DNA from: Sulfuricurvum sp.
GTDB lineage: Bacteria; Campylobacterota; Campylobacteria; Campylobacterales; Sulfurimonadaceae
NCBI RefSeq assembly: GCF_028713855.1
Contig: NZ_JAQTNN010000013.1
Location: forward strand, 1 to 64,000
Length of the DNA: 64,000 nucleotides
Direction of reading: 5' to 3'
Part shown: positions 23,899 to 37,636 of the stretch, piece by piece
Layout: each line of letters starts with the position of its first letter
How positions within the stretch are numbered: position 1 is the first letter of the stretch
Notes under the pieces: model-generated
Seen by the model: only the letters and a program-made list of their open reading frames with translations
The model's database searches: none
What the model was told of the DNA's origin: nothing
Position numbers and translations under genes: made by a program

Positions 23899-24684
23899 AT
23901 GGCAAGTATTATCGATATCAAAGACGAATGTGCGCTTCATGTGCGTGATTTTGAATTTACTTATAAGGGTGCACCTGCTCCAAGTTTGAAAAAAGTGACG
24001 ATGCCGATCGCTAAACATTCGATCACCGCCCTCATCGGACCATCCGGTTGCGGTAAAACAACTCTATTGCGATCCTTTAACCGAATGCACGATTTGTATC
24101 CGGGAAACACCTACAACGGTGAGATAGAGTTCGAAGGACGCAATATCCTCGGCGCAAAAGAGGATTTGATTCACCTCCGTACAAAAATCGGAATGATCTT
24201 TCAAAAACCGACGGCGTTTCCGATGTCGATTTTTGATAATGTTGCTTACGGTATGCGTCTTCAAGGAATTAAAAACAAAACGGAACTGCGCGACCGTGTC
24301 GAAAAAGCACTTCAAGATGCCGCCATCTGGAAAGAGGTAAGCGACCGCCTTAAAAACGATGCAAATGGCCTCTCCGGCGGTCAGCAGCAGCGTCTGTGTA
24401 TTGCCCGTGCGATTGCGGTGGAGCCGGAAGTTCTTTTGTTTGATGAACCGACCTCCGCACTTGACCCGATCTCTACTCAGGGGATCGAAAAGCTGGTTAT
24501 CGAGCTCAAAGAGAAAGTCAGTATCATCATTGTCACGCACAATATGCAGCAAGCGGCACGGGTCAGTGATTACACCGGATTTATGTATTTGGGAGAGCTT
24601 ATCGAATTGGGTCACACCGAAGAACTGTTCGTTACCCCGAAAGAAAAATTGACACAAGAATATATCACCGGTAAGTTTGGTTGA
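23899..24684 (+). CDS. pstB: Phosphate ABC transporter ATP-binding protein PstB
   Basis: A 261-residue ATPase with Walker [10 protein letters not shown], the Q-loop, signature LSGGQQQR, Walker [12 protein letters not shown] and the H-loop ([13 protein letters not shown]). It powers PstCA and, with PhoU, reports transport state to PhoR. It is the last gene of the run; a strong terminator begins at its stop codon. Confidence 0.97.
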
Positions 24685-24722
24685 TCGGCACTAGGGCACT
24701 GAGCCCTGCCGATTTTCCTTTC
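24684..24722 (+). terminator. Rho-independent terminator of the pst operon
   Basis: A two-part stem (ATCGGC...GCCGAT outside, AGGGC-ACTGA-GCCCT inside) is followed by TTTTCCTTTCTTTCTT. It begins at the last base of the pstB stop codon. Confidence 0.85.
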
Positions 24723-24760
24723 TTTCTTCTCTATTTTATAAATCTATTTTCACAACCCTC

Positions 24761-25480
24761 TTACAAACTCGGAAGCATTTGAATCTCTGTTTTAATCGCA
24801 TAAGTGTTTTCACGTAAACGATGAACTCGATCTATTCCCGCTTTTTTATAATACGCAGCTGATGTTTCAAAATACTTTTTATGATTATCAAGATACGCAT
24901 AAAGGGGATCTTCGATGTTATTGTCAAGATAAAGTTCTTTTATCGTTTGCGCCAATGTTGATGCGCTTGCGCGATATTCTTCTTCTAATGCGGGAGAAGG
25001 CTCTTTGAGATAATTGAGACGTGTTCTGGATAATTGTTCGTACGCTGCTTTAAGTTCGTGTAAACCGATTTGTTTGATTGATTGTATAAATTTCGGTTCT
25101 TCCTTTTCTTCATAGCTATCATACTCTTTAAGTTGTTCTAAAAACGGTTGCGCCGTTTGGCTCAAAACGGCACTGTCTTCTTTATATTGAGTAAGCAAGC
25201 GCTCAACTTTATCGACATTAAGCCCTTGCTTTTCATATTTTGGAAATACTTTTTCCAACTCCGCCACCGATGACTCCAACATAGGAATCGATTCTCTATT
25301 CCCATGCCGTAAAATCAATCGTAATGACTCTTGGCTCAATGTGAACAATTGATCCGGTGTTTTAGAAGGTAGGTTCACCGCTTTGGGTGTGCTTTGCTGT
25401 ACGTTATTTTGAGCATCGATCCATAACAAACCACTCGCTGCAATCAAACCGACGGGTATAAGCAAAAACATTTTTTTCAT
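24761..25480 (-). CDS. Membrane-anchored helical protein of unknown function
   Basis: A 239-residue protein: basic start (MKKMF), one hydrophobic segment that is a signal anchor or signal peptide (LLIPVGLIAASGLLWI), and then a long, charged, mostly helical domain with many Glu, Lys, Leu and Tyr. I do not recognise a family and see no catalytic motif. ATG 25480 follows AGGA by 6 bp. It is divergent from the EAL-CBS-GGDEF gene and converges on the pst operon. A periplasmic sensory or structural role is only a guess. Confidence 0.6.
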   Translation of the reverse strand: MKKMFLLIPVGLIAASGLLWIDAQNNVQQSTPKAVNLPSKTPDQLFTLSQESLRLILRHGNRESIPMLESSVAELEKVFPKYEKQGLNVDKVERLLTQYKEDSAVLSQTAQPFLEQLKEYDSYEEKEEPKFIQSIKQIGLHELKAAYEQLSRTRLNYLKEPSPALEEEYRASASTLAQTIKELYLDNNIEDPLYAYLDNHKKYFETSAAYYKKAGIDRVHRLRENTYAIKTEIQMLPSL

Positions 25481-25566
25481 TTTCAATCCTAAAAGAGATT
25501 TTTGCACACTATAAATCATTCTGATTACTGAAAAGCTACAGTTTAAACGGCCTATATCCCCTGTTT

Positions 25567-25598
25567 GTAACCGATTTGCAATCGATACATCCTATACT
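25567..25598 (+). promoter_or_regulatory. Weak Pho-box-like repeats and -10 box before the EAL-CBS-GGDEF gene
   Basis: GTAACC (25567) and GCAATC (25578) are 11 bp apart, and TATACT (25593-25598) starts 15 bp after the second: the same geometry as at pstS, phoU and the porin, with two mismatched bases. The -10 box ends only 6 bp before the ATG and no Shine-Dalgarno sequence is present, so the mRNA may be leaderless. Confidence 0.4.
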
Positions 25599-25604
25599 CG
25601 ATTT

Positions 25605-27371
25605 ATGGAACCTTTACACCCTTTTTATGAACGTTATTTTGATGTTTTGGACATCGCTTTTCAACCGATTGTCGATATCCATTCGGGAATTACTTTCGGC
25701 GTTGAAGCCCTCTTACGGGGAAGCGATGTTTTAGGATATATCAGTATCGAAGCATTTTTTGATCATCTTTATGAACAGAATATTCTCTACACTTTCGATA
25801 TTCGTCTACGCGAAGTGGTGATTGAAAAATTTTGTAGAATTGAGGGCTATGAAAACCTGAAGCTTTTTTACAATCTCGATAATCGTGTTTTGGAAATGAC
25901 CGACTTTTCAAAAGGGAATACGTCCCGAATCCTCAGACGCTACGGACTCGATCATAAACGTATCGTGTTTGAACTTTCCGAGCACAATGAAATTACCAAT
26001 ATAGAACATTTCAATCGATTAATGAGTCATTATGCGGATGAAGGTTTTTGTATTGCGATCGATGATTTCGGGATCGGTCAATCCGGATACAAACTCCTCT
26101 ATCACTCTACTCCGAATATCATCAAAATCGACCGCTTTTTTTTGAGTTCGATTGATAAAGATCCTAAAAAGAAACTTCTCGCTAGGAATATGGTTCAATT
26201 AGCAACACTTATGGGATGCAGAGTGATTGCCGAGGGGATAGAAAGTGAAAACGAACTCTTTGTTTGCAAAGAGATCGGTGCCCATATGGTTCAGGGTTAT
26301 TATGTCGCATATCCTACAATCAATATTACGCAAATCGAATCAAAATACCCCGATATTATAGGCACAACAATACGCGAACAACGCTTTAAAGACGATCATA
26401 ATATTATCCTCAAACGCCTCGAAACTCTCAAGCCCATCGTGATTGGCGATTCGATGGAATCCCTCCTTGATCTTCTCAAAGCCGACGATGAGCTTTTTTT
26501 GGTTCCTGTCGTTGATTCAGCCTCTTACCCCAAAGGTATTATCCACGAACATCGTCTCAAATCGGTTATTTATTCCCCTTATGGACGATCACTCATCCAA
26601 AACCGCTCTTCCAACCTCTCCGTACTGGATACCTATATCGAACCGATTCCCGTCGTTGATATCAAAATGCCCCTGGAAACCATCATAGAACTCTTCTCTC
26701 TTTCTGAAAATGCTCCTGGGGTTTTAGTTATCGAATCTTCCCGTTATATCGGTTATCTCAGTGCACGTGAAATGATTGAAGTTGTGCATGAACGCAATCT
26801 TATCTCTGCCCGTGACCAAAATCCTCTCACCCGATTGCCCGGGAATTTTAGGATCAACGCATTTATTGCCCAAATTCTCGAAAATAATGATGATGCGGTT
26901 GTTGCCTATTTTGATTTTGACCATTTTAAACCGTATAACGATTATTACGGATTTCGAAAGGGAGATCGTGTCATCTTGCTTTTCACCGAATTAATGCACA
27001 AATGCCTTTCCTCAGAGTTTTTCAAAGGGCATATCGGAGGAGATGATTTTTTTATGGGGACATTTTTGCATGGTGAGGTAACATTTGAATCGGTATGTTC
27101 CCAAATCACCTATCTAATCCAAAAGTTTATCGACGAAGTACAAGACTTTTACGAGACTGAAGATCGTGAACGAGGTTCCATCCTCTCTGAAGATCGTGAT
27201 GGAAATATCAAAGAGTTTAAACTTCTTAGCGTTAGTGCCGTTATAATTCGTATCGGAAAAGGGTCTACACTTCTAACAGGGGAACACCTGCAACAGTTAT
27301 TTGCACAAGAAAAAAAGAGGGCAAAAAAATCACCCACCCATATAAGCGTGGTTCACACGCGCGAGATTTAA
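25605..27371 (+). CDS. c-di-GMP protein with EAL, CBS and GGDEF domains
   Basis: A 588-residue soluble protein. The N-terminal EAL phosphodiesterase domain (about 15-245) keeps its metal-binding and catalytic residues: EALLR, NLDN, ELSEHNE, DDFG, KID and AEGIE. A CBS-pair region (about 275-400) usually binds adenine nucleotides. The C-terminal GGDEF domain (about 405-580) has GGDDF, an allowed variant, without an RxxD inhibitory site. It could make or break c-di-GMP under nucleotide control. It is transcribed alone, away from the divergent 24761 gene. The start has no ribosome site (see the promoter entry). Confidence 0.88.
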   Translation: MEPLHPFYERYFDVLDIAFQPIVDIHSGITFGVEALLRGSDVLGYISIEAFFDHLYEQNILYTFDIRLREVVIEKFCRIEGYENLKLFYNLDNRVLEMTDFSKGNTSRILRRYGLDHKRIVFELSEHNEITNIEHFNRLMSHYADEGFCIAIDDFGIGQSGYKLLYHSTPNIIKIDRFFLSSIDKDPKKKLLARNMVQLATLMGCRVIAEGIESENELFVCKEIGAHMVQGYYVAYPTINITQIESKYPDIIGTTIREQRFKDDHNIILKRLETLKPIVIGDSMESLLDLLKADDELFLVPVVDSASYPKGIIHEHRLKSVIYSPYGRSLIQNRSSNLSVLDTYIEPIPVVDIKMPLETIIELFSLSENAPGVLVIESSRYIGYLSAREMIEVVHERNLISARDQNPLTRLPGNFRINAFIAQILENNDDAVVAYFDFDHFKPYNDYYGFRKGDRVILLFTELMHKCLSSEFFKGHIGGDDFFMGTFLHGEVTFESVCSQITYLIQKFIDEVQDFYETEDRERGSILSEDRDGNIKEFKLLSVSAVIIRIGKGSTLLTGEHLQQLFAQEKKRAKKSPTHISVVHTREI

Positions 27372-27491
27372 AAGAAGTATCTCTCTGTCAGCATCTTTTC
27401 ACTATCGGTTTCAACTACCCTATAAGTATTTCCGGAAAATTTGGTTGATACCTTTATTATGCTTTATACCTCGCTTTCTTTATTTCTGTAT

Positions 27492-27497
27492 TATAAT
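27492..27497 (+). promoter_or_regulatory. Candidate -10 box of the REC-GGDEF-EAL operon
   Basis: TATAAT lies 45 bp before the start at 27543, in an AT-rich 170-bp gap with no other clear feature. No -35 box is evident, which is usual in this phylum. Confidence 0.5.
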
Positions 27498-27542
27498 GTG
27501 CTATTATTGGATAATCAATAAATCAAAGAAAGAGGAACAAAA

Positions 27543-29246
27543 ATGTCGGATGATGAGCTTTTATTCGCACCCGAGGAGAAAGAAGCATCTGCTGAAACTC
27601 CATGGACAGTGATGATCGTTGATGACGATGCCGAAGTTCACTCCTTTACCAAACTTGCTCTTCACGATTTTACTTTTGAACGCAAATCCTTGCGCTTTCT
27701 CTCCGCCTACAGTGCCGCCGAAGCAACTGAAATACTGCAAAAGCATGATGATATCGCGGTTATCTTGCTTGATGTCGTCATGGAGAGCGAAACAGCCGGT
27801 CTGGATCTTGTTGAAACCATCCGCTATCATTTCAATAATACGACGGTACGGATTATCATCCGAACAGGTCAACCCGGAGTGGCTCCGGAGCGGTATGTTA
27901 TCGATCATTACGACATTAATGACTACAAAGAAAAAACGGAGCTCACAACCGACCGGCTCTATACGACCATCCGTAGTGCCCTTTCGCAATACAAACAAAT
28001 TGTTGAACTCCTCAATAAAAAAAATGAGATCTACGCGACCCTGATAACTGACAGCTTGACCGGGCTTGGCAATCGGGTCAAGCTCAACTACGATCTGGAC
28101 ACCGATAAACCAATGTCTCTGGTTCTACTGAATATTGATGCGTTCAGTATGATCAACGATGTGTACGGATTTGAGGTGGGGGATCAGATGCTGTTGCAGT
28201 TTGGCAAAATTCTGCGTGATACCTCCGGACCTACGTGTACCGTTTATCGTCTCGAAGCCGATATCTTCGCTGTATTAACCAACCATAAAGAGATTCAGGA
28301 TGTGCAAAAAGAGGTCTTTCGGATCCAAAGCAGTATCACCAAAAACTCGTTCCTCATTAACGGGATAGAGCACCGGATCAATGTTACCATGGGAGTTGTC
28401 GAACACGACATCGGAAACATGATCCAAAAAGCCGAAATAGCGCTGCGTGAAGCGCGGAAAATGAGCCGAAACCGGGTACAGGTTTACTCTGATACGCTGG
28501 CGGTTATCGCGCAGATTAAAGAGAATACCAAATGGACGAAATGGCTCAAAGATGCCCTTGACCACGATAAACTGATTGCCTATTTTCAACCTATAGTCGA
28601 GTGTAAAACCGGCAGTATCATCAAATATGAAACCCTTGTCCGCTTGGAACATGATGGGGTCATATATACCCCCTATCTCTTCCTCGCAACCGCCCGCTAT
28701 GCAGGATTGCTCTATCAAATAACACAGCGAATGTTTGATCAGGCGTGCGCAAAATTTGCTAGCAATACCCTCGGCTTTACAATCAATATTACCGATCAGG
28801 ATCTCGTCGAATCGAGTTTTGTCGACTTCATCGAACTAACGCGCACCCGCTACGGAATCGAAGCCGATCGAATCTATTTCGAAATTCTTGAAGACAGCAG
28901 TATTTTGGCCAACCCCATCGCCGAAAAACATCTCAACGAACTCACGGCACTTGGATATCATCTGTGTCTGGATGATTTCGGGGTTCAGTGTTCGAATTTC
29001 GCCCAGCTCGGGAATCTGGATCTCGATATTGTCAAGATCGACGGTATCTATATCAAAGATATCGACGTCAATAAAAAATCCCAAGTAGTGACCGAATCAA
29101 TCCTCTTTTTTACCCACAAAATAGGGGTAAAAACCGTTGCAGAATTCGTCCACAGTGCACAGGTGTACGAAATTGTCAAAGCGATGGGAATCGATTATGC
29201 GCAGGGGTACTTCTTGGGTGAACCGAAGCCCGATTTGGTTCAATGA
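27543..29246 (+). CDS. Response regulator with degenerate GGDEF and intact-looking EAL domain
   Basis: A 567-residue protein: receiver (about 20-145; VDDDAEV, ILLDVVMES with the phospho-Asp), a helical linker, GGDEF fold (about 170-305) in which the motif reads LEADIF so cyclase activity should be lost, and EAL (about 315-560) keeping E in YETLVRL, NITDQ, FEILE, DDFG, KID and AEF. It is predicted to be a phosphorylation-controlled c-di-GMP phosphodiesterase, perhaps with GTP sensed by the dead GGDEF. It overlaps the YfiR gene by 4 bp, heading a four-gene operon with a kinase that may phosphorylate it. Confidence 0.88.
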   Translation: MSDDELLFAPEEKEASAETPWTVMIVDDDAEVHSFTKLALHDFTFERKSLRFLSAYSAAEATEILQKHDDIAVILLDVVMESETAGLDLVETIRYHFNNTTVRIIIRTGQPGVAPERYVIDHYDINDYKEKTELTTDRLYTTIRSALSQYKQIVELLNKKNEIYATLITDSLTGLGNRVKLNYDLDTDKPMSLVLLNIDAFSMINDVYGFEVGDQMLLQFGKILRDTSGPTCTVYRLEADIFAVLTNHKEIQDVQKEVFRIQSSITKNSFLINGIEHRINVTMGVVEHDIGNMIQKAEIALREARKMSRNRVQVYSDTLAVIAQIKENTKWTKWLKDALDHDKLIAYFQPIVECKTGSIIKYETLVRLEHDGVIYTPYLFLATARYAGLLYQITQRMFDQACAKFASNTLGFTINITDQDLVESSFVDFIELTRTRYGIEADRIYFEILEDSSILANPIAEKHLNELTALGYHLCLDDFGVQCSNFAQLGNLDLDIVKIDGIYIKDIDVNKKSQVVTESILFFTHKIGVKTVAEFVHSAQVYEIVKAMGIDYAQGYFLGEPKPDLVQ

Positions 29247-29779
29247 AACGAATAAAGCTTTTTGCTGTCGCCTTTTTTTACCTTTGCTATGCCACCTCGT
29301 TGCTCGCCATTTCGGAAGAAAGCATTAAAGCCGCTTTTTTGGAGCGTTTTACAATGTTTATCCAGTGGCCGAAACCGATCGACTCCTATACCATCTGTGT
29401 CTATGATGATGATTCATTTGCCCAGACCCTGCAAAAAAGCTATTCAGCACGTCTCTTTAACAACCGCCCTCTAAAAGTTATTCCTCTTAAGGTCGGAACC
29501 CCTTCCGAAGAGATGCTTAAGTGCCATATTCTCTATTTTCGCGGTTCTAAGCCTCATCAGAATGAAGCTCTGTTAAATACTTTGCGCAAAAACAATGTTT
29601 TAATGATCAGCGATGATGATGACGATGCAAAGCGCGGAGCAATGATCGGGTTTTATTTGCAAAACAATACCTTTCGCTTTGTTATCAATCAACGCAACCT
29701 CGAAAATGCCAATTTGAACGTCAGCTATAAACTTCTCAACTTCGCTACCGTTATCGAGCCGACCGGAGGATCAAAATGA
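29243..29779 (+). CDS. YfiR-family (DUF4154) periplasmic regulator
   Basis: A 178-residue exported protein, with a signal peptide ending near residue 21 (SLLA) and the YfiR/DUF4154 pattern: IKAAFLERFTMFIQWP at the start of the mature part, YTICVYDDDSF, and a C-terminal FVINQRNLENANLNVSYKLL. In Pseudomonas YfiR holds the membrane diguanylate cyclase YfiN inactive from the periplasm. Here the next gene (4-bp overlap) is a histidine kinase rather than a cyclase, so YfiR is expected to act on that kinase's periplasmic domain. Confidence 0.85.
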   Translation: MKRIKLFAVAFFYLCYATSLLAISEESIKAAFLERFTMFIQWPKPIDSYTICVYDDDSFAQTLQKSYSARLFNNRPLKVIPLKVGTPSEEMLKCHILYFRGSKPHQNEALLNTLRKNNVLMISDDDDDAKRGAMIGFYLQNNTFRFVINQRNLENANLNVSYKLLNFATVIEPTGGSK

Positions 29780-31344
29780 GAATAATCAACAGCTCCATTG
29801 CGTCTCAGATGACTCGCTCTTTGGTTATCACTAGTCTTTTCATCATTATTTTCGGAACTATATTTCTATCGTGGTACAACATTAACCATGAAAAAGAATC
29901 CTATCTCCATGAAAGCCAATTACAGGCTGATTTGGTCGCCGATTTGGTAACCGCTCCTTTGGCATTTTTTGATGTTCAGGGGGTCAATACCAATATAAAC
30001 CAACTCCGAAAAAACAGCAATATTATTCTGGCTGTTATTTACAATCCTGATAAAACCCCACTTGCCTCTTTTAATCCAAGCGGCCAACCTATTACAAAAA
30101 TCAATTCCCCCTTGGGAACACGATACGAGAACATCGGCTGGTTCCCATGGGAAGTTGAAAAACTATCAACCACGCTTGAAATCAAACAAAATTCTCAACT
30201 CTTGGGCTATCTTTATATCGAGAGAAAAACAGATCGTATCACCTCATTTATGATGGATTTATTGAAATCGGTTACCGTTTTTTCATTCGGTTTAATTCTT
30301 TTTGTGTACATGATCTCACATGTGTTGAGTAAAAAAATCCTACAGCCGATACTCACACTAACCGAAGCGGCCAAAGAAGTAGCGCAAAAAAGCAACTATT
30401 CGCTTCGTGTTACCCATGACAAAAATGATGAAATCGCTTATTTATACGATGCGTTTAACCATCTCTTGAGTGACACCGAATCGTTAACAAACCATTTGGA
30501 ATCGCGAGTGGAATCACGAACTCAAGAACTTCAAGACTCTCTTGAAACACTTAAAAAAGCGCAACTTCAACTGGTAGAATCTGAAAAAATGGCTGCTCTG
30601 GGAAATCTTGTCAGCGGTGTTGCCCATGAGGTCAATACCCCTTTAGGCAATGCAATCACCGGAGGATCTATTATCGTCAGAGAGACTCAGCAGCTTCTAC
30701 GGCAAATGGAAGAAGGAACCCTCAAAAAATCGTTTATGGAACAAAAACTCAACATATTAAACGAGACCTCCACTCTGCTGCTAAAAAGCGTTAATCAAGC
30801 AGCCAGCCTTATTCGCAGTTTCAAACGTATTTCCGTCGACCAAAGTGTGGAGGATAAACAGGAATTTAACCTCTATGAGTACCTAGAGGAAATCCTCCTC
30901 ACGTTCCATAACAAACTTAAAAAAATACCGGTAACCGTAAACATAAAAGGGGATCGTGATCTTGTTATCAAATCCTATCCCGGCGTATATGCCCAAATCA
31001 TCAGCAACTTCATTCAAAATTCATTGCTGCATGGATTCAGCCCGTCTACACCGGATGCTACCATCACTATTTGTTTTAACATAGAGGGGAAAAATCTTGT
31101 TTTAACGTATGCCGACAACGGCACCGGAATGGACGAAAAAATTAAAAAAATCGCCTTTGAGCCGTTTACCACCACCAAACGCAATGCCGGAGGAACGGGG
31201 CTTGGACTAAATATCGTCTACAATCTTATCACCCAAAAACTTCTGGGAAAAATCATCCTGAATACTGAGATTCAAAAGGGGGTGTTATTCACCCTTACCC
31301 TCCCTCTGGAACCAACAGTATCAGGTGAAATTTTAGATACTTAA
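29776..31344 (+). CDS. Membrane sensor histidine kinase with CHASE8-like periplasmic domain
   Basis: A 522-residue kinase: membrane helix 12-34, periplasmic domain 35-160 resembling the YfiN/CHASE8 sensor (LVADLVTAPLAFFD, LRKNSNIILAVIYNPD), membrane helix about 165-183, HAMP (184-240), coiled coil, HisKA-like domain with H284 (VAHEVNTPLG) and HATPase_c (GGTGLGL). It overlaps yfiR by 4 bp. The REC-EAL protein two genes upstream is the obvious phosphate acceptor; this is inferred from position only. Confidence 0.85.
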   Translation: MRIINSSIASQMTRSLVITSLFIIIFGTIFLSWYNINHEKESYLHESQLQADLVADLVTAPLAFFDVQGVNTNINQLRKNSNIILAVIYNPDKTPLASFNPSGQPITKINSPLGTRYENIGWFPWEVEKLSTTLEIKQNSQLLGYLYIERKTDRITSFMMDLLKSVTVFSFGLILFVYMISHVLSKKILQPILTLTEAAKEVAQKSNYSLRVTHDKNDEIAYLYDAFNHLLSDTESLTNHLESRVESRTQELQDSLETLKKAQLQLVESEKMAALGNLVSGVAHEVNTPLGNAITGGSIIVRETQQLLRQMEEGTLKKSFMEQKLNILNETSTLLLKSVNQAASLIRSFKRISVDQSVEDKQEFNLYEYLEEILLTFHNKLKKIPVTVNIKGDRDLVIKSYPGVYAQIISNFIQNSLLHGFSPSTPDATITICFNIEGKNLVLTYADNGTGMDEKIKKIAFEPFTTTKRNAGGTGLGLNIVYNLITQKLLGKIILNTEIQKGVLFTLTLPLEPTVSGEILDT

Positions 31345-31400
31345 TAAATTTTAAGATATCAATGTTACTATTAGATTAAATTATCAAACAAAGGTTGGTC

Positions 31401-33383
31401 ATGAAAAATGTTTTTTTAGCGGCAATGATTTCTTGCTCTCTTCTCCAAGCAGATGACCAATCCGAGTTAGCACCCCTTTCTCTGGAAGATCTTCTCAATA
31501 TTCAAGTCACCAGTACTTCACGCCGCGATGAAAGCCAACAATTGGCAGCCGGTGTCGTTACGGTCGTATCGTCCCAAGAAATTCAACAATTCGGAGCAAA
31601 AACGCTGGGTGATGTCATCGATCGTCTCGTGGGGATGGAAGTGCTGAGTTCTCATCAACGTCCCCATAACAAAACTTCTATCAGAGCGATGAACGGTGCC
31701 CATCAGGAAGGATGGGAAGTTGTTCTGCTCAACGGCCGTCCTATACACGACGGAACTGACGGCGGCTTTAACTTCGATATTTATCTCGGCTTTCCGCTGG
31801 ATATGATCGATCATATCGAAGTAATTCGGGGACCCGGATCGGTTATTTACGGCACCAACGCGATGGCAGGTGTTATTAATATTGTTACTAAAGACGCACA
31901 AAAATCGATCAACGAAACTAGCGTTGATATCAGCGGAGGAAGTTTTAATCGTCGCCAACTTCAAGCTACAACTCTGATAGGGGGAACCGATTACAGTTTG
32001 AATATCGGTCTAAATTCTATTCGAGCCAATGGCGATAGCGTAAATGGAGTTGCCGCTATACATACCCCTGCAACTACCACTACCCCGGCAGTCTACGATA
32101 CTGGAACCTATGATATGGGTCAAAACAGTGATAATCTCGTCATTAACGCTAAATACAAAGGGTTCACACTTAACTCTATGGTAATGAATAATAATGCGGA
32201 CAGCGGTGCTTCCACCTTTGCCCTCCCCTCATCCCCGATGAAAAAGAAAAGAAAATATCTTGACATTGGGTATCTTTATGATATTACAAGCGGATGGGAC
32301 GTATCCCTCAACTATACTGTCAATTTAGGCGAATTTGATTGGCAAATCAACGAAGCGGGAAAGCGCAATCACTATAATGACCGCTACGATATGACAGAGG
32401 TCATCGTTCGCGGCAATGTTGCCACCGATCTCAATCTCCTCTTCGGTGCCAATACCTCCAATTATGAAACAGAATTCGCAACGGGGTTCCCATATTCCAA
32501 GATGAACAATAAAAGCGCTTATACCCAAGTCGACTACATGCTCTCCCCGAAACAAAAAATCATCGCCGGTGTCCAATTAAACAAGCCGGAAGATACTCAG
32601 TCCGATCTCTCTTCACGTGCAGGTTTTATTCAGGGATTCGGTGATAACTGGTGGCTTAAACTCCTCTATAGTGAAGCGTATCGATCACCGAATCTCCAAG
32701 AAGCAAAGATCAATGCCTCTACACTGATTGGTAATCCTTCGTTAGATCCCGAAAAAGTAGCAACATATGATGCACAGCTTATCTATCAAACATCGAAACA
32801 ATACTATTCGATTGCCCTATATGATACAGTCCTTAATAATTTAATCGTGAGAATCCCCTATTTGCCTAATCCTTCTAAGTCAACATTTGAAAATCGGGGA
32901 AATGTCCATTTTCAGGGGATAGAAATTGAAGGGCGCGTAGAATTAAATGAGGACTTCAGCATTCTCGGAAATTTCAGTTATCAGGTCAACAAAACAGATG
33001 CAGGAGTTAAGGATAGTACGTTTGCCCCCAATATGATGGCGAAATTGGGTGGTTCATATGCTGGCATACACGGTATGAATATTGCTGTTTTCAACAGCTA
33101 TATCGGAAAATCGACATATCAAAGTGTGGCAAATTCAACGCTTCAACCAGAAGCTTTTAACCCAAATGCGGATGCTTACAATTTTTTAACTGCCAATATA
33201 ACCATTGATACGGCTCAAATGTGGGGAATTGGAAAATCTGGTAAATCTTTGCTATCCGTTTATCTGGATAACATACTGGATAAACAGGTCTGGACTCCTA
33301 ATCTTAATTACACCAACGGCACCAACACGATTCCTCAATACTGGGGACGAAGTGCCAATCTTACCTATACCTATAAATTTTAA
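31401..33383 (+). CDS. TonB-dependent outer-membrane receptor
   Basis: A 660-residue exported receptor. After the signal peptide (SLLQA-DDQ) comes LSLEDLLNIQVTSTSRR, a common plug start, then the plug domain (VVTVVSSQEIQQFGAKTLGDVI; VIRGPGSVIYGTNAMAGVINIVTK) and a 22-strand barrel ending YTYKF. Ligand is unknown; siderophore, haem or cobalamin type receptors share this plan. ATG 31401 after AAAGG is chosen over the TTG 6 bp upstream. It follows the kinase after 56 bp. Receptors often sit beside YfiR-type genes, and energy would come from a TonB such as that at 14031. Confidence 0.9.
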   Translation: MKNVFLAAMISCSLLQADDQSELAPLSLEDLLNIQVTSTSRRDESQQLAAGVVTVVSSQEIQQFGAKTLGDVIDRLVGMEVLSSHQRPHNKTSIRAMNGAHQEGWEVVLLNGRPIHDGTDGGFNFDIYLGFPLDMIDHIEVIRGPGSVIYGTNAMAGVINIVTKDAQKSINETSVDISGGSFNRRQLQATTLIGGTDYSLNIGLNSIRANGDSVNGVAAIHTPATTTTPAVYDTGTYDMGQNSDNLVINAKYKGFTLNSMVMNNNADSGASTFALPSSPMKKKRKYLDIGYLYDITSGWDVSLNYTVNLGEFDWQINEAGKRNHYNDRYDMTEVIVRGNVATDLNLLFGANTSNYETEFATGFPYSKMNNKSAYTQVDYMLSPKQKIIAGVQLNKPEDTQSDLSSRAGFIQGFGDNWWLKLLYSEAYRSPNLQEAKINASTLIGNPSLDPEKVATYDAQLIYQTSKQYYSIALYDTVLNNLIVRIPYLPNPSKSTFENRGNVHFQGIEIEGRVELNEDFSILGNFSYQVNKTDAGVKDSTFAPNMMAKLGGSYAGIHGMNIAVFNSYIGKSTYQSVANSTLQPEAFNPNADAYNFLTANITIDTAQMWGIGKSGKSLLSVYLDNILDKQVWTPNLNYTNGTNTIPQYWGRSANLTYTYKF

Positions 33384-33396
33384 TTGATGTTACGCA

Positions 33397-33446
33397 CCCA
33401 AACCGGCAAAGCCTGTTTGGGAGGCAAGGACAAGCTTGTCCTTTGC
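33397..33446. terminator. Two hairpins between the receptor and queF
   Basis: CCCAAAC-CGGCAAAGCCT-GTTTGGG (33397-33421) and a near-perfect GCAAGGACAAG/CTTGTCCTTTGC (33424-33446) lie between converging genes. No T-tract follows on either strand. They could be terminators or a small palindromic repeat. Confidence 0.45.
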
Positions 33447-33499
33447 AATCCCCTAAAGCTACCCACATCTTCCGGATGCGGGAGAAAACTCCACCGTTT

Positions 33500-33889
33500 C
33501 TAACGTGAAAGTTCCATTTTTTCGCTGTCGATCTCAACTACCGTATGAACATTTCCGCGCGGATAGTAGTCTGCAACTACTTTTAAGCGCTTAGGAGCGA
33601 TTTTTGACTCGAAAGTGCTATAGATCTCATTTGCGCTGTTTTCGTGCGAAATATGGCGGTTTCTGAACGAATTAATGTACAGTTTGATAGCTTTGAGTTC
33701 GGCTACCCATTTATCCGGCGTATATTCGACGTAAATCGTTGCAAAATCGGGATATCCGCTGCGTGGACAAAGACAGGTAAACTCCGGCAAGGTCACTTTA
33801 ATGACATAATCACGCTCATGCTGATTCGGCCAAATCTCAAAATCTTTTTCGATATCGAAATTTTCAACTATTTGTTCTCCGTATTTCAT
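33500..33889 (-). CDS. queF: NADPH-dependent 7-cyano-7-deazaguanine reductase
   Basis: A 129-residue type I (short) QueF. It reduces the nitrile preQ0 to preQ1 on the way to queuosine in tRNA. The catalytic cysteine is C41 in CPRSGYPDF with D48 beside it, and the QueF signature ELKAIKLYINSFRNRHISHE (split around residues 69-88) is intact. It lies 15 bp after a GGDEF/EAL-like gene on the same strand, probably at the end of the gyrB run. Confidence 0.95.
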   Translation of the reverse strand: MKYGEQIVENFDIEKDFEIWPNQHERDYVIKVTLPEFTCLCPRSGYPDFATIYVEYTPDKWVAELKAIKLYINSFRNRHISHENSANEIYSTFESKIAPKRLKVVADYYPRGNVHTVVEIDSEKMELSR

Positions 33890-33904
33890 TGCTACTTCCT
33901 TCTT

Positions 33905-35290
33905 TTATAATTGTTCTGCGCTCAAAATTCTACCTAGATAGTTACCCTGTCGGTAGTTGATTTTTAATGATTGGACGAGATTATTCGTATACGCATCCTC
34001 AACCATCGATATCCACGTTTTAGCTCCGCACAAATGGGCACTGAGATTTAAACCTTGGATAATATTCTGATAGCCTGCTTCTTTAATATGGCGTATATAG
34101 AGAGGATCAAAACGGACCATATCTACTTGCATCTCTTTGAGATAAAGGAGTGTCGTATGGTACCCGCCCAAACGATCCAAAGCGATTTGATACCCTGCCT
34201 TTCGGTATTGGGCAATTTGGTGAACAAACCGTTCTAACTGATGACAATACTCTTTCTCTTCAAACATCAGCGTTATTTTATTTCGAGACATCGGATAACG
34301 CTCAAACAACGTCATGGCATGTTCGAAAAAATGAGGATTACGCAACGTAACCGGAGAAACATTTATGACGAAATTCCGATTTCGTTCATCGCATAAAGCA
34401 GCTATTGTATCCAAGACATCACTCTCAAGACGACGCATTATATTGAGACGGTTTAGAACAGGAATATAGCGGCTTTGATGAATAAACCGCCCCTCTGAAT
34501 CAATGAGTTTGATTGTCGTATCAAATGTCGGATATTCGTCACAGCATACCGGCCAAAATCCAACCGAAAAGTGTTTCTGTTCCAATGCATCCACAATTTC
34601 ATTTTCCAATTCATTGATCGAATAAAATTCCTCTTTTTCTGAACTGATCCGATCATTATGCAGCTCATACAAACGGCTTACCAGCAACTCAACATTATCC
34701 GAAAGTCGTGAATCGAGCATCACCGCCTCAACCCGTATTTCAATCTCATTGTCGACATGATTTTGATATTTACTGAGGAATAATTCGATAAGAGAAATAT
34801 ATTGCCCTTTTTCGCCCGGTAAAAAGAGTAAAAAATCACCCCCTTTATAGCGGTTAACAGGTAGTTTTTCTATTTTTTTGTCCCGAAAAAAATGGTCTAA
34901 TTTTATCACCATATTTTGTAAAGCGATATCGCCGTTTTTGACGCCGTAACGTTCATTGATCGACCATAAATTTTCAACACTGATCAGGACAAGGGTTTGC
35001 GTTTTTTTGGAAAGTGCTTTGCTAAGCAAACGGAAAAAATATTCCGGAGTGAACGTATGGGTGATCGTATCGGTAATATTTTCATGGGTGCTCTGATAAA
35101 TCAGATAAAAAATGAAATAAATCATTATCCCCAGCAATGCAATCGATAAAACAATAAGAGAGGATAATGTGGTGTAATTACGTGTTAAAAGTGCAAATAA
35201 AGTGATAGCACTGAGAAAAAAGATCGGTAACCCCATACGTAATGCTAACGCAAAACGGTATTCCCTCTCTTTTTGTTCGGTATAGGTCAT
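33905..35290 (-). CDS. Membrane protein with degenerate GGDEF and EAL domains
   Basis: A 461-residue protein with two N-terminal membrane helices (about 17-38 and 42-66), a GGDEF fold (about 85-210) whose motif is reduced to GGDF by loss of one residue, and an EAL fold (about 225-460) that has lost nearly all catalytic residues: no EAL triplet, DDFG replaced by DRLG, KxD replaced by RFD, and AEG replaced by a VED-type motif. It is therefore expected to be a non-enzymatic c-di-GMP or protein-binding regulator, like LapD or CsrD. It starts 6 bp after gyrB. Confidence 0.82.
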   Translation of the reverse strand: MTYTEQKEREYRFALALRMGLPIFFLSAITLFALLTRNYTTLSSLIVLSIALLGIMIYFIFYLIYQSTHENITDTITHTFTPEYFFRLLSKALSKKTQTLVLISVENLWSINERYGVKNGDIALQNMVIKLDHFFRDKKIEKLPVNRYKGGDFLLFLPGEKGQYISLIELFLSKYQNHVDNEIEIRVEAVMLDSRLSDNVELLVSRLYELHNDRISSEKEEFYSINELENEIVDALEQKHFSVGFWPVCCDEYPTFDTTIKLIDSEGRFIHQSRYIPVLNRLNIMRRLESDVLDTIAALCDERNRNFVINVSPVTLRNPHFFEHAMTLFERYPMSRNKITLMFEEKEYCHQLERFVHQIAQYRKAGYQIALDRLGGYHTTLLYLKEMQVDMVRFDPLYIRHIKEAGYQNIIQGLNLSAHLCGAKTWISMVEDAYTNNLVQSLKINYRQGNYLGRILSAEQL

Positions 35291-35296
35291 AAATTA

Positions 35297-37636
<2,340 letters not shown>

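Follow-up and report, generated by a model that had tools for sequence, protein, structure and literature searches.

A TonB-dependent receptor lineage linked to YfiR in a kinase and EAL regulator cassette of Sulfuricurvum

We describe a four-gene cassette in 64,000 nucleotides of DNA from Sulfuricurvum sp. (contig NZ_JAQTNN010000013.1, positions 1 to 64,000), hereafter the window. The cassette encodes a response regulator with an EAL domain, a YfiR protein, a membrane histidine kinase and a TonB-dependent outer-membrane receptor. Comparison with other genomes suggests that the receptor belongs to a lineage that is inherited with YfiR, and this lineage is the part of most interest in the cassette. 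A model is presented below in which the receptor would control YfiR, and through it the kinase and the EAL enzyme.

The four-gene cassette

The features of the cassette, with the evidence for each, are as follows.

27543..29246, + strand: REC-GGDEF(degenerate)-EAL response regulator, 567 aa (Pfam; orthologue alignment)
29243..29779, + strand: YfiR/DUF4154 secreted periplasmic protein, 178 aa (Pfam, 9.8e-35; AF2 model; PDB fold search)
29776..31344, + strand: CHASE8-HAMP-HisKA-HATPase sensor histidine kinase, 522 aa (Pfam; H, N and G boxes; fold matches)
29953..29967, + strand: APLAF segment in the periplasmic domain of the kinase (alignment with AAVVF of E. coli DgcN)
31401..33383, + strand: TonB-dependent outer-membrane receptor, about 660 aa (Plug and barrel Pfam profiles; start codon context)
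31476..31502, + strand: N-terminal extension LSLEDLLNI of the receptor, preceding the TonB-box-like QVTSTSRR (peptide region LSLEDLLNIQVTSTSRR); candidate YfiR-docking element

An earlier sequence-only reading had proposed four consecutive genes at 27543-33383, and all of their open reading frames (ORFs) and named domains were recovered. The two 4-bp overlaps that it had noted are both ATGA, at 29243-29246 between the regulator gene and yfiR and at 29776-29779 between yfiR and the kinase gene. The gap between the kinase and receptor genes is 50-56 bp, depending on the start of the receptor. The receptor gene probably starts at ATG 31401 (660 aa), a start at TTG 31395 being also possible.

A relative of the window's YfiR was found in 18 of the 41 genomes of the genus searched. 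A synteny survey, which the sequence-only reading had suggested, found the four genes in the order regulator-YfiR-kinase-receptor in about ten species of the genus; their usual site is between pstCAB and queF. Because the order recurs in so many species, and usually at the same place, the four-gene arrangement is not due to chance. Two genomes provide some clues regarding the units within it. The G023 regulator shares 84% identity with that of the window, while identity is 34% for YfiR, 45% for the kinase and 24% for the receptor: the three sensory proteins were exchanged together while the regulator stayed. In G031, YfiR, kinase and receptor are kept, and a 74% identical REC segment is followed by a kinase-receiver protein as the regulator's output. 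The three sensory proteins therefore behave like a single module, whose fixed partner is REC. A further genome, G020, carries two relatives of the cassette's receptor in tandem (L033:534-4577).

The regulator-kinase pair and YfiR

The regulator matches the Pfam profiles Response_reg (8.5e-08), GGDEF (9.9e-21) and EAL (2.4e-55). Its phospho-acceptor D77 lies within VILLDVVM, and the REC Asp, Thr and Lys, together with every examined catalytic position of EAL, are invariant in 10 orthologues. The GGDEF site is the degenerate YRLEADIFA in all 10, in line with the previous view that the GGDEF half is dead. Since GGDEF is degenerate while the REC site and the EAL catalytic residues are kept, the expected output is that of a phosphodiesterase, and the regulator is predicted to be a phosphorylation-controlled phosphodiesterase of cyclic di-GMP (c-di-GMP).

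The kinase matches CHASE8 (4.3e-10), HAMP and HATPase_c (8.6e-19), with HisKA below the Pfam cut-off. Its H-box GVAHEVNTP is invariant, including H284, and the N and G boxes are present. In the structural model, whose confidence is low outside the periplasmic and CA domains, the DHp and CA domains match solved kinases with Z of 16-18; for the periplasmic domain there was no solved structure among the matches listed, which are thus uninformative about its fold. The APLAF segment aligns with AAVVF of E. coli DgcN, the motif at which YfiN is contacted by YfiR (PMC3375315), and its Phe is invariant. The CHASE8 match and this alignment agree with the YfiN-like periplasmic sensor postulated by the sequence-only reading. 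Its broader claim, that the partner of YfiR is here a kinase and that the c-di-GMP enzyme is a separate REC-EAL protein, is consistent with the domains, the synteny, the conservation of kinase and REC, and the intact EAL site, and also with the YfiR::kinase fusions and the receptor linkage described below.

Among named relatives, the kinase has its best match in Sulfurimonas. In Sulfurimonas NORP87 (L105:5277-8581) a regulator (56%) and a kinase (46%) likewise overlap by 4 bp, with neither YfiR nor receptor, and a search of the NORP87 genome for DUF4154 gave no match. YfiR is therefore not essential to the pair and would be an added input. Between the window's kinase and that of G023 or NORP87, identity is 65% in the DHp domain versus 28-31% in the periplasmic domain (28% in G023), as expected if the interface with the regulator were held while the input changed. 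Because the pair persists in NORP87, and because DHp is conserved while the sensor diverges, kinase and REC-EAL regulator look cognate.

Two further observations concern such kinases. For CHASE8 kinases lacking YfiR, an upstream substrate-binding protein was considered and rejected, the neighbours being RsmC-type methyltransferases. The window's genome also carries a second YfiR-kinase unit (L201:3720-7839, G000:C7), which is divergent from a TonB receptor and has no adjacent response regulator; its kinase could share the window's regulator.

The second protein, read as YfiR in the sequence-only reading, is confirmed as such by both profile and fold. It matches DUF4154 with 120.2 bits against a cut-off of 24.9, and the top 15 PDB matches of its AF2 model (pLDDT 86.5) are all P. 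aeruginosa YfiR, with TM of about 0.8. A phmmer search against PDB sequences gave no match, whereas the fold search did find YfiR. After the YfiR crystals, the next-best PDB matches of the model are periplasmic substrate-binding proteins, one of them solved with L-Trp. Of the two cysteine pairs of E. coli YfiR, it has a counterpart of the first only; across the wider YfiR family the number of cysteines varies from 0 to 4.

The receptor and its linkage to YfiR

The identity of the fourth gene likewise stands: the receptor matches Plug (7.9e-18) and the TonB barrel (2.7e-26), and PDB sequence matches include BtuB and the colicin I receptor. A Pfam scan for the STN signalling domain found none, Plug and barrel being the only families. 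The PDB sequence matches gave no clue to the ligand, as they show no more than an overall resemblance to BtuB, Cir, FepA and others, and an Rfam search of 24500-35500 for an RNA that might hint at a ligand gave no match. The receptor, underrated in the sequence-only reading, is the more unusual part of the cassette.

DUF4154 was found in 34 of 397 genomes in a search across the class Campylobacteria. A TonB receptor lies within 3 ORFs of YfiR for 47 of the 51 Campylobacteria YfiR ORFs, and two of the four exceptions lie where a contig ends. These linkage counts, obtained with iterated profiles on retrieved neighbourhoods, are slightly low: the ORF filter dropped some YfiR genes that lie in high-GC surroundings or overlap their neighbours (L100, L257, L258 and L261), and a six-frame search recovered these. 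The linkage spans several output types, with varied gene orders and orientations. Beside YfiR or fused to it we found CHASE8-GGDEF proteins, GGDEF-EAL proteins, kinases, hybrid kinases, SpoIIE-type (PP2C) phosphatases and a methyl-accepting chemotaxis protein (MCP; L080). For example, YfiR is fused to GGDEF and, in L095, to a hybrid kinase. SpoIIE/PP2C-type phosphatases are outputs of CHASE8 or YfiR at L078:7784-9478, L085:1633-3165 and L081:4122-6035, the last one being fused. A YfiB-like gene was looked for beside YfiR in the Campylobacteria loci, and none was found.

A similar association is seen elsewhere. Among 80 loci of related kinases, a receptor is nearby in 3 of 3 with YfiR versus 1 of 77 without it; the three are YfiR::kinase fusions close to TonB receptors in Alteromonadaceae, Pseudoalteromonas and Colwellia, which belong to another class. 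In Hahella (L267), receptor, YfiR, CHASE8 hybrid kinase and REC-GGDEF-EAL protein are again together, independently.

The genome of the window encodes 16 receptors and contains six receptor-YfiR units. Three receptors with a known YfiR neighbour carry a short segment (for example LSLEDLLNI or DFESLLENV) between signal peptide and plug, while most other receptors of this genome have a TonB box directly, with no such segment. Three more extended receptors were listed before their neighbours were inspected, and each adjoins a divergent YfiR. With extension classified by eye, 6 of 6 extended receptors of this genome are thus YfiR-linked, versus 0 of the 10 others. A profile of the extension trained on other loci, chosen post hoc after a regular expression had failed, separated 7 linked from 22 unlinked receptors in held-out genomes with an area under the curve of 0.93 (p=4e-4); three of the 7 linked ones belong to a genome whose genus also supplied part of the training set. 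Moreover, on a quick receptor tree the YfiR-linked label needs 3 changes versus 18.4 in shuffles, and none of 500 shuffles was as low. Extension and linkage are therefore properties of a receptor lineage, to which most YfiR-linked receptors belong and in which a short N-terminal segment stands ahead of the TonB box.

Some related loci and neighbours are recorded here. In Sulfurimonas SAG-AH-194-L11 (L295:3286-6029) a receptor split into two ORFs, by frameshift or sequencing error, lies beside YfiR, a kinase and a REC-GGDEF protein. In Beggiatoa (L240:7-5670) a CHASE8 hybrid kinase of 1887 aa with three receiver domains adjoins YfiR, and the genome has at least 11 YfiR matches. At L327:4156-8431 a TonB receptor, an unassigned secreted protein of 156 aa and a membrane GGDEF-EAL protein stand in a row, possibly following the same logic with another or a very divergent adaptor. 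In the window, another c-di-GMP protein is encoded on each side of the cassette, an EAL-CBS-GGDEF protein with a GGDDF motif (25605-27371) and a membrane GGDEF-EAL protein beside gyrB (33905-35290). A promoter scan found sites no more frequent than in shuffles.

A possible relay across the envelope

The YfiBNR system of P. aeruginosa offers a precedent: YfiR represses YfiN and YfiB sequesters YfiR, the embracing segment of YfiB being largely an N-terminal loop, residues 44-58 (PMC4887326). The cassette resembles YfiBNR, HmsCDE and AwsXRO in the fold and family of YfiR, the CHASE8-type periplasmic partner, the overlapping genes and a likely outer-membrane partner. It differs from all three in its output, a histidine kinase with a REC-EAL phosphodiesterase, so that the expected effect on c-di-GMP is opposite to that of a cyclase. 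In contrast to YfiBNR, it has no YfiB, a TonB receptor standing in its place, and its membrane partner is a CHASE8-HAMP-HisKA-HATPase protein rather than a YfiN-type diguanylate cyclase. Complete YfiBNR systems conserve two disulfides in YfiR, whereas the window's YfiR has no second cysteine pair.

Histidine kinases paired with a REC-EAL response regulator, as in the window, are also found in systems of the VieSAB/RocSAR type; what sets the cassette apart from these is that its gene run also encodes YfiR and a TonB receptor. Like FecA-FecR-FecI, it has a TonB receptor adjoining a signalling chain that spans the periplasm, but there is no STN domain, FecR or sigma factor, and YfiR with a CHASE8 membrane protein is present instead. 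YfiR with a histidine kinase output is already known: an in silico survey by Malone et al. in 2012 described Yfi systems with kinase, GGDEF-EAL, histidine phosphotransfer (HPT) and MCP outputs, usually without YfiB, and called the core widespread and modular (PMC3375315). The cassette shares with these divergent systems the YfiR-PAS core with swapped outputs and the usual absence of YfiB; the receptor link, the N-terminal extension and the SpoIIE outputs are added here. SpoIIE outputs are absent from the output list in the text of that survey, and the word TonB occurs nowhere in it (PMC3375315). We found no description of the receptor-YfiR link in the open-access literature, and a subscription-only report is possible.

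Given the aligned APLAF segment, the absence of a YfiB gene beside YfiR and the linked, extended receptor, the simplest model runs from receptor to YfiR to kinase to EAL enzyme. We consider it fairly probable that in such a relay YfiR is under the control of the receptor, which would act in place of YfiB. What we observed are the parts, their residues, their linkage and their co-inheritance; the ligand, all contacts between the proteins and the sign of the individual steps are inferred. The receptor would bind an extracellular ligand, and engagement of ligand or TonB would alter the interaction between its N-terminal extension and YfiR in a YfiB-like manner, as suggested by linkage, co-inheritance and the YfiB precedent. 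A contact between extension and YfiR is our hypothesis at this point. YfiR, bound to the CHASE8 domain, would hold the kinase in one state until captured by the receptor; the sign of this switch, in which the ligand relieves restraint, is assumed from YfiBNR. The kinase would then phosphorylate the REC domain of the regulator encoded in the overlapping operon, a step for which the family evidence is strong, and phosphorylation would set the EAL activity and change c-di-GMP, as the observed catalytic residues would allow.

Several observations weigh against this relay. Outside Campylobacteria, a receptor is near only 23 of 59 YfiR ORFs, a set drawn from the genomes of 48 kinase relatives, mostly proteobacteria, in which the ORF filter missed 3 further loci. 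The Phe of APLAF is also kept in the YfiR-free NORP87 kinase and is thus not diagnostic, and the NORP87 pair itself indicates that some kinases of this kind do without YfiR. The regular expression for the extension, fixed beforehand and applied to fresh receptors of five further genomes, gave 5 of 12 versus 2 of 17 (p=0.09), which is not significant; classical TonB boxes gave false positives. Two closely related extended receptors of G248 (L321:2813-4843 and L324:2528-4549) have no YfiR nearby; they are nested in the YfiR-linked clade, as if the partner had been lost. Finally, co-inheritance of a receptor subfamily with YfiR is not proof of contact.

Other explanations have to be weighed against the same data. 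YfiR itself might be the ligand sensor, the receptor merely importing a ligand that YfiR binds and reports to the kinase without touching the receptor. The substrate-binding proteins, including the L-Trp structure, among the next-best fold matches of YfiR would fit this account, as would the weak binding of vitamin B6 and L-Trp by P. aeruginosa YfiR (PMC4887326). The reported affinity for those ligands is in the ten-millimolar range, however, and import alone would not require the periplasmic extension common to the linked lineage; we regard this account as unlikely, though worth keeping in mind. The receptor might also be a co-regulated nutrient transporter outside the signalling path, with YfiR and kinase sensing the envelope or redox state, as in the cysteine-dependent mode of YfiR. 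The receptor gene stands about 50 bp from the kinase gene without overlap, YfiR can function in the absence of a partner in the outer membrane (PMC3375315), and many Colwellia YfiR::kinase fusions have no receptor nearby. Such a transporter would hardly explain the linkage in 47 of 51 Campylobacteria cases, across several outputs and differing gene orders and orientations, or the joint exchange of YfiR, kinase and receptor in G023, and this seems to us quite unlikely. It is very improbable that YfiR signals to a different membrane protein while the kinase responds to its own sensor domain, like the kinase of the YfiR-free pair in NORP87: yfiR overlaps both neighbours by 4 bp and stays between them in orthologues, and elsewhere YfiR is fused to kinases.

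On the relay model the cassette is one member of a modular set, in which the receptor lineage and YfiR are combined with various outputs: cyclases, cyclase/phosphodiesterases, kinases, hybrid kinases, PP2C-type (SpoIIE) phosphatases and chemoreceptor-type proteins. More tentatively, and without going so far as to favor it, we suggest that the extension of this lineage may dock YfiR-family proteins as a general mode of TonB-receptor signalling, separate from STN/FecR, with one periplasmic adaptor driving c-di-GMP enzymes, kinases, phosphatases and chemoreceptors. The window's cassette is a clean test case because its kinase and enzyme are separate proteins. If the TonB receptor lineage is the input of most YfiR systems that lack YfiB, the identity of the ligand could be tested directly in many c-di-GMP, kinase and chemoreceptor systems together, and the FecA type would be joined by a second general mode of TonB-receptor signalling.

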